Positions 3,984 to 11,700 of a DNA stretch of 64,000 bases are shown one piece after another. The stretch spans positions 1,302,001-1,366,000 of the forward strand of contig NZ_CP022221.1 in assembly GCF_004114935.1 (NCBI RefSeq), read 5' to 3'. The translations under genes were made by a program, and so were the position numbers. The notes beneath the pieces are model-generated. The model did no database searches. It was not told where the DNA came from and worked only from the letters and a program-made list of their open reading frames with translations. This DNA comes from Bradyrhizobium zhanjiangense (GTDB taxonomy: Bacteria; Pseudomonadota; Alphaproteobacteria; Rhizobiales; Xanthobacteraceae). Every line of letters begins with the position of its first letter. The stretch's first letter is position 1.

Positions 3984-4523
3984 GTGACGACCCGGAGTGC
4001 TGCCATACCAGCTTTCAAGCCGGCCAGCGCCGGTCCCGCGCTGACCGCCTCACTGCTCGTCACGCTGATCGCCGCCGCCACGATCGCGGGGGCCTGGTTC
4101 TTCCAGCTCGTGCTTGAGATTGTGCCCTGTCCGCTCTGCCTGGAGCAGCGCTACGCCTATTATCTCGCGATCCCGCTCGGTGCCCTCACGGCGCTTGCGG
4201 CCAGGAGCGGCGCGCCGCGGCCGCTGCTGCTCGCTGCGTTGGCGATCCTCGCGCTGGCGACGCTCGCCAATGCCGGTCTCGGCACCTATCACTCCGGCGT
4301 CGAATGGGGGTTTTGGCAGGGGCCGACTGACTGCTCCGGTCCCGTGGTCAATCTCGGCAACGCCGGCGACCTTTTCTCGCGGCTCGACACCGTGAAGGTG
4401 GTCCGCTGCGACGAGGTGCAGTGGCGCTTCCTCGGCCTCTCGCTGGCCGGCTACAACGTGCTGATCTCGCTGCTGATGGCCGCAATCGCCGCATGGGGAT
4501 TTATGCGGACGGCGAAGCGTTAG
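3984..4523 (+). CDS. dsbB: disulfide bond formation protein B
   Basis: 179 residues, four membrane helices. The inner membrane protein DsbB reoxidises DsbA and passes electrons to quinone. The first periplasmic loop has the redox pair Cys49-Pro-Leu-Cys52, followed by LEQR with the Arg that contacts quinone; the second loop holds Cys117 (PTDCSG) and Cys142 (VRCDE). The start is GTG at 3984, preceded by GAGAGAGG. A DsbA-like protein is encoded 4 kb downstream (8507-9166), a plausible but unlinked partner. All four essential cysteines are present. Confidence 0.93.
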   Translation: MTTRSAAIPAFKPASAGPALTASLLVTLIAAATIAGAWFFQLVLEIVPCPLCLEQRYAYYLAIPLGALTALAARSGAPRPLLLAALAILALATLANAGLGTYHSGVEWGFWQGPTDCSGPVVNLGNAGDLFSRLDTVKVVRCDEVQWRFLGLSLAGYNVLISLLMAAIAAWGFMRTAKR

Positions 4524-8506: not shown

Positions 8507-9166
8507 ATGGCTGGATCTGGGAATAAGCGCCTTGTGGCGACGCGGCGCGCGGCGTTGACGCTGATCGGGGCGGGTGCCTTGGCGGCGGGCGGGATCACTT
8601 TCGCGCGCGCCGCCGCCGATGACGACGAGGTGCTGACCGAAACCAAGGTGCTGCGCGATCCCGACACGCCGGTTGCCGGCAATCCCGACGGCAACATCAC
8701 CATCGTCGAATGGTCCGACTACAATTGTCCCTATTGCCGCAAGCTCGAGCCCGAGCTGCGCCAAGTCGTCCAGGACGACGGCAAGGTGCGGCTGGTGATG
8801 AAGGATTGGCCGATCCTCGGGCCGGTCTCGGTCACGGCGGCGCGGACCGCGCTCGCGGCGAAATTCCAGGGCAAGTACCATCAGGCCCACGACGCCATGA
8901 TGGGCGTCAGCTCGCGCCTGACCGAGCCGCGCATCAACGAGCTTCTCGCTGGCGCCGGCGTCGACATGGACCGCCTGAAGCACGATCTCGCCGGCCATGC
9001 CAAGGACATCGACGCGATTCTCAAGCGCAACAATGAGCAAGCTGAAGCCTTTGGCTTCCGCGGCACGCCGTCCTTCATTGTCGGCAAGTACCGCGTACCG
9101 GGCGTGCTGAGCATGAACGAGTTCGAGCAGGTCATTGCCGACGCACGCAAGGCCAAGATGAACTGA
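8507..9166 (+). CDS. DsbA-family thiol oxidase, Tat-type signal
   Basis: 219 residues. N-terminal signal with twin Arg (VATRRAALTLIG, residues 10-21) and cleavage near FARAAA (residue 37). A thioredoxin fold with helical insert follows: active site Cys-Pro-Tyr-Cys in YNCPYCRKLEPE (residues ~74-85), the DsbA-like helical segment 110-165, and the cis-Pro strand FRGTPSFIVGKY (residues ~183-194). It resembles BdbD/DsbA oxidases that introduce disulfides in exported proteins, with dsbB at 3984-4523 a possible oxidant. The gene is monocistronic. Confidence 0.9.
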   Translation: MAGSGNKRLVATRRAALTLIGAGALAAGGITFARAAADDDEVLTETKVLRDPDTPVAGNPDGNITIVEWSDYNCPYCRKLEPELRQVVQDDGKVRLVMKDWPILGPVSVTAARTALAAKFQGKYHQAHDAMMGVSSRLTEPRINELLAGAGVDMDRLKHDLAGHAKDIDAILKRNNEQAEAFGFRGTPSFIVGKYRVPGVLSMNEFEQVIADARKAKMN

Positions 9167-9345: not shown

Positions 9346-9552
9346 CTACTTCGATGAGATCCGGACCCAGTCCTTGTGCGCTCGGTCGCGCAGCGCGTCC
9401 CAATCGGCCTTGGCGACATCCCAGTTCACGATGGTGCGATTGGTGGTCGCGACCTCGCCATTGGCGACCGACGACGTCTGCATGGAATCATAGACGTAAA
9501 CGCCGCCCGCGAGCAGCAGTGCGCCCAGGATCATTCCAAAAAAAGTCTGCAT
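9346..9552 (-). CDS. small single-helix membrane protein, function unknown
   Basis: 68 residues. Residues 1-24 form one hydrophobic helix (FFGMILGALLLAGGVYVY), either a membrane anchor or an uncleaved signal, then a polar tail rich in Asp, Trp and Lys (NWDVAKADWDALRDRAHKDW). The ATG at 9552 is preceded by GGAGG at the right distance; the upstream open part of the frame is not used. I do not recognise a family. The tail after the helix would be periplasmic. Confidence 0.75.
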   Translation of the reverse strand: MQTFFGMILGALLLAGGVYVYDSMQTSSVANGEVATTNRTIVNWDVAKADWDALRDRAHKDWVRISSK

Positions 9553-9634: not shown

Positions 9635-10705
9635 TCATGTCCCATTCAGCCATTCCAGCAGCTCCGCGTTGATTTCGCGCGGATAGGTGTGACTGAGGTC
9701 GTCGATCTCCCGATAGGTGACGTCGGCGCCAGCGGCAGCGAGCGCCGCCTGCGTCTGCCGCGCGGTCTGCACCGGAAACATCCAGTCGAGCTTGCCGTGG
9801 GTGATGAAGACCGGCAGGCGCTGGAGGCGCGTGGCGTCCGCCATCTCCGCCATCAGCGGATGGAAAGTCGCCGACACCGGCGCAAGATGCGTGAATGGCG
9901 AGGCGCCGTCGAGGCCGGTGACGTAGCAGAAGGTGCCGCCGTCGCTCATGCCGGTCAGCAGCATCCGCGAGGCATCGACCGTCCATCGGCCGCGCACGGT
10001 CTCGAGGATGCGCATAAGATTCGGCGTGTCGCCATCGTCGCCCATCAGCGCCCAGGTCGGGCCGGTTGCCGTCGGCGCCACCAGGATTGAGCCAAGGCTG
10101 CGCGCATCGCGCAACCAGCTCCACAGGAAACCGCGCCCGTTACCGCTGCCGCCATGCAGCGCCATCACCAGCGGCATGGCGCGATCGGACATGTAATATT
10201 CGGGCACATAGACCGAGAAGCCACCGCGGCTGCCGGGCTCGTTGTGATCATGGAAGATGCCGGTATTTTCGCTCGCGCCGACTTCGAGCCGCGACAACAG
10301 ATCGGCATTTTCGCGATTGGCAGCGTTGAGAAAGAAGCTGCTCACCGGGGGAAACTGCAGGGCCAGCGGATAGAGCGCCTCCTGTGCGCGCGGCAGGTGG
10401 CGCAGCGCGCGGAACACCGCGACGAGGTCGCCATTGCCACGCTCGACCTCGCGAATGCCGGCAAAGGCGGCGAGCGTCTCGTCGCAGGCGCGATCGAGCC
10501 GATCGCGTAGGCCGGCGAACTGCTCCGGCCAGTCGCCGATCGCTGCCTGCGCCGCTTGCAGCGCCTCGTCAGGCGCGCCGATCGCGTTCATCACCGACGC
10601 GAAGGCCGGCGGGTGCAGATGCCGCTGGAAGAAGCCGAGCGCCTCCAGCGCGTTGAGCAGCGGCGGCAGCACGGCCACGATGTCGTCCACCACGGCCTCG
10701 GTCAT
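9635..10705 (-). CDS. alpha/beta hydrolase with helical N-terminal domain
   Basis: 356 residues, no signal peptide. Residues 1-140 are an all-helical domain; residues 160-356 form an alpha/beta hydrolase core of the polyhydroxybutyrate-depolymerase/feruloyl-esterase-like type, with oxyanion motif LHGGSG (183-188), nucleophile Ser254 in GMSDGG, acid Asp307 in GKLDWMFP and base His339 in LSHTYP. The triad is complete, so it should be an active esterase or related hydrolase. The long frame reaching to 11191 is an artefact; ATG 10705 starts the protein. It lies 23 bases after the HtrA-like gene and is presumably co-transcribed with it. Substrate unknown. Confidence 0.85.
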   Translation of the reverse strand: MTEAVVDDIVAVLPPLLNALEALGFFQRHLHPPAFASVMNAIGAPDEALQAAQAAIGDWPEQFAGLRDRLDRACDETLAAFAGIREVERGNGDLVAVFRALRHLPRAQEALYPLALQFPPVSSFFLNAANRENADLLSRLEVGASENTGIFHDHNEPGSRGGFSVYVPEYYMSDRAMPLVMALHGGSGNGRGFLWSWLRDARSLGSILVAPTATGPTWALMGDDGDTPNLMRILETVRGRWTVDASRMLLTGMSDGGTFCYVTGLDGASPFTHLAPVSATFHPLMAEMADATRLQRLPVFITHGKLDWMFPVQTARQTQAALAAAGADVTYREIDDLSHTYPREINAELLEWLNGT

Positions 10706-10728
10706 CGCGGCTTCCTCAAGCTTTTGGG

Positions 10729-11700
10729 TCAGTGCAGCTTCGGCGCCTTCAAAAGCTTGAAGCGATCGGTCGAGGTCACCGTGACGTCGAAGGTGACGCC
10801 TTCGTGATGCACGGTCAGCGGCACGTCGACGCCGGCGGCGCCGAGCGCCCACATCTTCTTGTAGAAACCGGTCTGGCTCGTGACCTTGTCGCCGTCCACG
10901 GCGAGGATGACATCGCCGGTCTTGAGCTCGGCGCGCGCGGCCGGACCGTTGGCGGAGATCCCGATCACCACCACGCGGTTGTCGATCTCGGTCGAGTAGA
11001 GCCCGAGCCAGGGCCGTGCCGGCTTGTTGACGCGGCCGAACTTGCGCAGGTCGTCGAGGATCGGCTTCAAGAGGTCGATCGGCACGATCATGTTGACATG
11101 CTCGGCCTTGCCGTCGCGTTCGCGCTCGAGTTGGAGCGAGCCGATGCCGATCAACTCGCCGCGTTCGTTGAGAAGCGCGGTGCCGCCCCAATTCGGATGT
11201 GCGGGATAGGTAAAGATGGCCTCATCCAGCAGATATTCCCAATAGCCGGCGAATTCCTGCTTGGCCACGATCTGGCTCGCAACCGAGCGCGTGCGGCCGC
11301 CGGCGCCGCCGACCACGACGCGGTCGCCGATCCGCGTTTCCGCCGAGGTGCCGAGCGGCAGAGGTTCGACGTCGAGCTGGCCGAGCGCCTGTACGAGGCC
11401 GAAGCCGGTGACGGAATCGAAGCCGAGCGCATGCCCTTCGACCACACGCCCGTCGGCGAGGTGCAGCCATACGGATTCCGCCTCGGTGATGAGGTAGCCG
11501 ATGGTGAGCACCAGCCCGTCGTCGATCACGACGCCGTTGCCGGCGCGTTCGGTGCCCAACGTCTCGGCGCTGAAGGCGTCCGGCGGGATGATGGCGTGCA
11601 GGCCGACGACGGAGCCGAGCGCGCGGTCGAGATCGAAACCATAATCGCTCGCACGCGGCTGGTTGGCCGGCGGCACTCTCCATTCGGTCAGGGTGGGCAT
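10729..11700 (-). CDS. HtrA/S1C-fold protein with PDZ domain, catalytic triad lost
   Basis: 323 residues with the DegP/DegS layout: trypsin-like barrel (about 25-215) and one PDZ domain (about 225-315, with LGLYSTEIDNRVVVIG and LKTGDVILAVDG). Aligned by eye to DegP, all three catalytic positions are changed: the His of 'TNNHV' is Tyr69 in TIGYLI, the Asp of 'SDIAL' is Gly99 in TGFGL, and the Ser of 'GNSGG' is Trp171 in PNWGG. There is no signal peptide, so it is probably cytoplasmic, unlike DegP. ATG 11700 follows AGGAGAACTCC. With the hydrolase just downstream it may be a scaffold or binding subunit rather than a protease. Confidence 0.85.
   Translation of the reverse strand: MPTLTEWRVPPANQPRASDYGFDLDRALGSVVGLHAIIPPDAFSAETLGTERAGNGVVIDDGLVLTIGYLITEAESVWLHLADGRVVEGHALGFDSVTGFGLVQALGQLDVEPLPLGTSAETRIGDRVVVGGAGGRTRSVASQIVAKQEFAGYWEYLLDEAIFTYPAHPNWGGTALLNERGELIGIGSLQLERERDGKAEHVNMIVPIDLLKPILDDLRKFGRVNKPARPWLGLYSTEIDNRVVVIGISANGPAARAELKTGDVILAVDGDKVTSQTGFYKKMWALGAAGVDVPLTVHHEGVTFDVTVTSTDRFKLLKAPKLH

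Follow-up and report, generated by a model that had tools for sequence, protein, structure and literature searches.

HtrA proteins of bacteria usually carry an export signal, and the active proteases of the HtrA/S1C group assemble as trimers. The bacterial HtrA pseudoproteases found in the literature are few, namely MamO and PflC, as far as the available text of the papers goes.

According to the accessible part of its description, MamO has a residue other than Gly at position 193, which bars the formation of an active oxyanion hole, and Trp192 in loop L1 deflects the bound peptide (PMC4794232). PflC, a scaffold protein of the Campylobacter flagellum, has the HtrA fold without the triad and plays a structural role, again according to the available text (PMC12222027). 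In a 2008 survey of 91 genomes, including those of B. japonicum and R. palustris, two inactive proteins were counted among 247 trypsin-like proteins, as given in the accessible part of the paper (PMC2605481), a count that could include the gene analysed here. Inactive relatives of HtrA are already known; for the class-wide family with fixed Tyr-Gly-Trp at the triad positions, cytoplasmic in the members near the present locus, a description was not found in the available literature text, in which MamO and PflC were the closest proteins. The available part of PMC6411480 contained nothing relevant to this family.

The gene pair and the replaced catalytic centre

The window analysed here is a stretch of 64,000 nucleotides from a 9.34 Mb genome in one contig, and the closest named relatives of its genes in the homologue listing belong to Bradyrhizobium. 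A preliminary description of the window had placed an HtrA-like gene beside a hydrolase gene that begins 23 bp further on, and we confirmed this arrangement, with both frames on the minus strand and a complete Ser254-Asp307-His339 triad in the hydrolase (Table 1). Each of the two genes is preceded by a Shine-Dalgarno-like stretch, and their co-transcription is likely.

Table 1. Coordinates of the gene pair and of its features in the window
Feature	Position	Strand	Remark
HtrA-like pseudoprotease gene	10729..11700	-	323 aa; Trypsin_2 + PDZ; cytoplasmic branch
Trypsin_2 protease-fold domain, residues 54-186 of HtrA-like protein	11143..11541	-	
Tyr69 codon TAC (catalytic His position)	11494..11496	-	Y 115, F 2 of 117
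Gly99 codon GGC (catalytic Asp position)	11404..11406	-	G 117 of 117
Pro169 codon (oxyanion-hole Gly position; 193, chymotrypsin numbering)	11194..11196	-	P 101, G 1 of 117
Trp171 codon TGG (catalytic Ser position)	11188..11190	-	W 109, F 6, Y 2 of 117
FAGYWEY family signature, residues 150-156, region of HtrA loop L3	11233..11253	-	between two predicted strands
PDZ domain, residues 232-308	10777..11007	-	conserved PWLG (230-233) before it
C-terminal tail RFKLLKAPKLH of HtrA-like protein	10732..10764	-	
Intergenic gap, 23 bp	10706..10728	-	contains hydrolase ribosome-binding site
Alpha/beta hydrolase gene	9635..10705	-	356 aa
Hydrolase N-terminal helical domain, residues 1-140	10286..10705	-	
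Hydrolase Ser254 codon, nucleophile (GMSDGG)	9944..9946	-	invariant, n=38
Hydrolase Asp307 codon	9785..9787	-	invariant, n=38
Hydrolase His339 codon	9689..9691	-	invariant, n=38

Domain matches and a monomer AF2 model indicate a trypsin-type fold followed by a PDZ domain in the HtrA-like protein. Only the Trypsin_2 and PDZ families were detected in the domain search, and the score against TIGR02037 was 93.6 bits, below the curated cut-off of 416.2. In an alignment to DegS, with the Ser position assigned via the NWGG/NSGG motif, Tyr69, Gly99 and Trp171 fall on the catalytic His, Asp and Ser, confirming the earlier proposal that all three triad residues are replaced. The same motif served to assign Pro169 to position 193, the sense of this position being taken from the available text of PMC4794232.

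To describe the family, we used 118 alignment rows, corresponding to 117 distinct sequences because the window protein was entered twice. At the triad positions of these 117 sequences, window included, we found YGW in 108, YGF in five, YGY in two, and FGW and FGF in one each; the H/D/S triad occurred in none. A dead protease is thus retained, as had been claimed, and the objection that only this copy might be mutated fails, since no aligned family member has an intact triad. YGW was likewise found in all 30 loci, the window's own included, in 32 sequences from wider stretches (several sharing a genome), and in 80 of 80 sequences representing the best 80 of 587 confirmed relatives in a scan of named genomes. 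In an 84-sequence alignment with a mean column identity of 48%, position 99 was invariant, and positions 69 and 171 were 98% and 92% identical, respectively.

Conservation extends beyond the triad positions. E73, F150, W154, E155 and Y156 were present in 117 of 117 sequences (F150 was F in 80 of 81 sequences of the named-genome set), and H168 in 106 of 117. P230, W231, G233 and D263 were kept in 117 or 118 of the 118 rows, and S188 and D95 in 115 rows each; T66 and T164 were also conserved. No invariant Ser-His, Ser-Lys or Cys pair was detected across the 118 rows. Judged from its sequence, this family would be unable to work as a trypsin-type protease, and the protein probably binds rather than cuts. 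Those of the 120 closest homologues listed that have a name bear one of the labels serine protease, S1C family or S1-C subfamily serine protease, trypsin-like serine protease, and signal protein PDZ. The family is annotated as a protease although its sequence argues against trypsin-type proteolysis.

Selection, spread and branches of the family

The replaced positions were considered at the codon level in 76 genes of the named-genome set, window included. Codon 69 was TAT in 60 genes and TAC in 16, always encoding Tyr, and codon 99 was any of the four Gly codons, always encoding Gly. Codon 171 was TGG in all 76 genes, which is uninformative on silent change because TGG has no silent alternative. 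For the six close pairs listed, dN/dS from the window gene was 0.05-0.08; over 75 pairs, in which the distant ones have high dS, its median was 0.228. Silent variation without amino-acid change, together with low dN/dS, indicates purifying selection. That a usually single-copy gene with a fixed non-catalytic centre is kept by purifying selection in many Alphaproteobacteria points to a real cellular role, so far undescribed.

Matches to the HtrA-like protein were found in 106 of 149 sampled genomes of the window's GTDB family (E<=1e-30), of which 104 have the cytoplasmic type; the other two (G031 and G054) were left out because, by identity, they have the second type only. At the order level, 47 of 297 genomes matched (E<=1e-25), and at the class level, 65 of 289 genomes have a family member (E<=1e-20), after three of 68 matches were dropped (E about 1e-21, 28-37% identity, with the look of ordinary HtrA). 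At the phylum level, in a sample overlapping the narrower ones, 36 of 398 genomes matched (E<=1e-25), including one match (G770, 34% identity) that groups with canonical HtrAs. Outside Alphaproteobacteria, members were detected in two genomes of one family only (phylum sample). The family is thus seen mainly in Alphaproteobacteria. Stops were present in a few single matches elsewhere (G197 and G245). Of viral contigs, 25 stretches fitted the search pattern and none encodes a relative; carriage by phage was dropped on this ground.

In a 78-row tree, seven other HtrAs of the window genome are separated from the family with support of 100/100. A single branch (97/76) sets the cytoplasmic type apart, and the exported rows form a comb without resolution beyond it. 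One sequence, B_L122, is placed among the exported rows, yet has no signal-like segment; when it is taken as cytoplasmic, the support for the clade is 98/90. Members near the window begin like MPSLTEWKVPxxxQPRxxDYxFDLDRAL, without a hydrophobic segment, and the absence of a signal peptide from the window protein, noted earlier, holds on a by-eye reading of its N-terminus. Members at about 38-47% identity mostly have a signal-peptide-like N-terminus (by eye), as do the two members beyond Alphaproteobacteria (by eye). This pattern is consistent with an exported ancestor followed by one move to the cytoplasm, the rooting, the deep forks and the by-eye grouping being uncertain. In the two members beyond Alphaproteobacteria (L286 and L287, in genomes G998 and G920), Y and G are kept and His is found at the third position (by eye); horizontal transfer or an early branch is possible for these two.

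The two branches also have characteristic tails. An LH end was found in 37 of 60 cytoplasmic-branch members of alignment A1, typically as LKxPRLH, and many exported-branch tails end in Ser/Thr-Tyr/Phe/Leu. HtrA PDZ domains are known to bind ends of the latter type.

The window genome contains 16 Trypsin_2 matches. Among the 15 others, 11 retain the H, D and S motifs (by eye), L280 has degenerated differently, L283 seems to be broken, and L284 and L285 were left without a call. L280 (G000:C1:1874604-1875002, minus strand, outside the window) has Glu at the His position and Gln at the Ser position, with Asp kept (by eye); an HtrA that looks intact (L270) is found some 3 kb away. L283 (G000:C1:8180901-8181098, minus strand) matches Trypsin_2 profile positions 5-73 only, its frame beyond being unlike HtrA, and is probably a broken htrA copy.

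The neighbouring hydrolase and its linkage

The product of the neighbouring gene has a Ser-Asp-His triad in an alpha/beta hydrolase fold and, from its sequence, looks like a live, esterase-like enzyme. CE1/PHB-depolymerase-like esterases (LC-Est1C, 3wyd) are nearest to it, and its scores are below the PHB depolymerase cut-offs (NF050058, 53.8 bits against 150; TIGR01840, 33.4 bits against 107.85). Unlike LC-Est1C-type esterases, it carries at its N-terminus an additional helical domain (about 140 residues), over which no strong match was obtained in the homology search; VIA rows for the hydrolase mostly cover residues 109-356. A tandem duplicate of the hydrolase was observed in a genome without a match to the HtrA-like family (G664:C307:13004-15178).

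The preliminary description had suggested that the two proteins form a scaffold/effector pair. Within the 149 family-level genomes, we counted the full-length hydrolase at >=59% identity, leaving aside the G140 remnants and 20 weaker matches at 30-37% identity, most of them partial. It was present in 35 genomes, in one of which (G122) it is split in two pieces with an open HtrA-like gene; in G140, hydrolase remnants contain stops while the HtrA-like gene is open. Both genes occur in 31 genomes and are adjacent in 13 of these, namely, all seven of the same genus, G135 (HtrA first) and five of genus g26 (hydrolase first). The remaining 18 of 31 are not adjacent: in G095, the two genes are on opposite strands with 4.9 kb between them, and in 17 they are unlinked, some perhaps merely from differing contigs. 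The cytoplasmic HtrA-like protein occurs without a full-length hydrolase in 73 of 104 genomes, and the hydrolase without the HtrA-like protein in 4 of 35. At the class level, the hydrolase was found in 21 of 289 genomes, 12 with and nine without a family member; the two genes were found side by side in the window genome only, the draft genomes having them on different contigs.

A tighter linkage was observed in the loci most similar to that of the window. In the best 80 of 587 relatives from named genomes, the HtrA-like gene is followed by the hydrolase gene in 38, all at >=78% identity, with a median gap of 25 bp (16-289 bp); these are 38 of the 39 loci at this identity, all 38 with both genes on the same strand, and the 39th (L205) ends at a contig edge. 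The order is reversed in one locus (L218), and no hydrolase was detected in the available flanks of 40 of the 80, including 4-kb flanks of a Bradyrhizobium record at 72% identity (L210). About ten pair loci contain extra sequence between the hydrolase and the next small gene, the gap within the pair never exceeding 289 bp. In pair loci with enough flank, a downstream DsbA-like gene was found in 33 of 36, a small ORF in 35 of 36 and an upstream M20 gene in 19 of 36. In the window, this small ORF (9346-9552, minus strand) lies downstream of the pair and its product has a single hydrophobic stretch, and DsbA-like and DsbB-like proteins are encoded on the plus strand (8507-9166 and 3984-4523, respectively).

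Adjacency is weak evidence for a complex because the block is largely syntenic in the Bradyrhizobium clade, as the DsbA-like gene illustrates. The pair has thus long been linked in the Bradyrhizobium lineage, which suggests co-expression, with general synteny accounting for much of the linkage. At the family level, adjacency is genuine but restricted: besides the seven genomes of the same genus, it extends to two related genera, in one of them with the order reversed. As a dedicated system, the pair was not borne out, given the 73 of 104 genomes without the hydrolase and the adjacency in only 13 of 31. The hydrolase is a companion in some lineages only.

No recurrent partner gene beyond the hydrolase was found in the loci examined across the family, the neighbours being lineage-specific. 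In three loci (L126, L113 and L135), the HtrA-like gene is followed by a same-strand repeat protein gene, Sel1/TPR-like by eye, and then by a gene for another conserved, secreted-looking protein; these genes may form a partner operon in lineages other than that of Bradyrhizobium. PADLOC gave no defence match for the HtrA-like protein or the hydrolase, and a role in defence was dropped.

Possible function and comparison with known systems

The sequence evidence gives good support to a dead HtrA that is retained for a role in binding. On balance, we favour a PDZ-led binding scaffold or holdase. This would be an ancient, separately evolving HtrA family, mainly of Alphaproteobacteria, in which the aromatic-Gly-aromatic triad, the Pro-type position 193 and the fixed FAGYWEY at L3 would lock the protein out of catalysis. 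The PDZ domain, with its kept PWLG loop, may capture partner or client proteins by their peptide ends. In the former active-site cleft, which Tyr and Trp would fill, peptide may be held or deflected without being cut, so that the protein would act as a cytoplasmic holdase or scaffold. The Bradyrhizobium hydrolase, probably co-transcribed, may be one client or partner and would not be the reason for the family to exist. With somewhat less than even confidence, we also propose that this class-wide HtrA family is long past proteolysis, with exported members basal in the sampled tree and the cytoplasmic clade derived, and that its catalytic centre was rebuilt as a fixed aromatic/acidic site (Y69, E73, W154-E155-Y156, H168 and W171) with binding of its own, the protein being a non-proteolytic PDZ holdase or sensor of the alphaproteobacterial cytoplasm.

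Several other explanations were weighed against this binding role. That the protein is dedicated to the adjacent hydrolase, as its scaffold or regulator, is unlikely: the constant order, strand and short gap near the window, the adjacency in G135 and, reversed, in the g26 genomes and L218, and the confinement of extra sequence to the far side of the hydrolase argue for it, but the HtrA-like gene often occurs without the hydrolase, the hydrolase in some genomes occurs without the HtrA-like gene, the two are often not adjacent where both are present, the L210 flanks have no hydrolase, the DsbA-like gene is nearly as well kept, and in G140 the hydrolase is degraded beside an open HtrA-like gene. 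It is possible, if rather doubtful, that E73, W154, E155, Y156, H168 and Trp171 line a small-molecule or metal pocket, the protein acting as a sensor or carrier. The conservation of the first five residues fits such a pocket, and MamO, in the available text of PMC4794232, demonstrates the repurposing of a trypsin fold for metal binding; H168, however, is outside the positions conserved at >=93% in the exported group, and the neighbourhoods examined contained no transport or redox gene that recurs.

A point against the binding role is that T66, E73 and E155, all invariant, and H168, kept in most sequences, might serve another kind of chemistry, perhaps even catalysis. An enzyme whose catalytic residues have moved, to which the conservation of S188, D95, T66, T164 and H168 (107 of 118 rows) might point, is nevertheless very improbable, considering the absence of an invariant Ser-His, Ser-Lys or Cys pair and the near-complete loss of the oxyanion Gly. 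The loss of catalytic residues would also be expected of a gene decaying in a single lineage, an explanation with a negligible chance of being correct in view of the open frames and the replacements fixed across the class; a pseudogene or a single-copy mutation was ruled out by the fixed YGW in relatives together with purifying selection.

Compared with the active HtrA/S1C proteases (DegS, DegQ, DegP, Deg1 and HhoA), the window protein has His, Asp, Ser and the oxyanion Gly all replaced, is without a signal peptide (by eye), and belongs to a branch apart from seven HtrAs of its own genome. As far as the available text on MamO allows the comparison, both proteins are HtrA-derived, with a degenerate triad, a residue other than Gly at 193 and a bulky Trp in loop L1, which is at 192 in MamO and at the Ser position, 195, in the window protein. 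They differ at the Ser position, which is Thr in MamO and Trp in the window protein. MamO also carries a TauE transporter domain at its C-terminus and a pair of metal-binding His residues (H148/H263); the window protein instead contains a PDZ domain and gave no TauE match in the domain search. From the accessible description of PflC, the HtrA fold and the loss of the triad are shared; PflC is periplasmic, with two PDZ domains and a deleted His loop, and is part of one motor, in contrast to the single PDZ domain, the kept shape of the His-region motif and the class-wide distribution of the present family. By analogy, MamO is the best guide to the structural logic of the dead centre, and PflC is a precedent for an HtrA body serving as a structural part.
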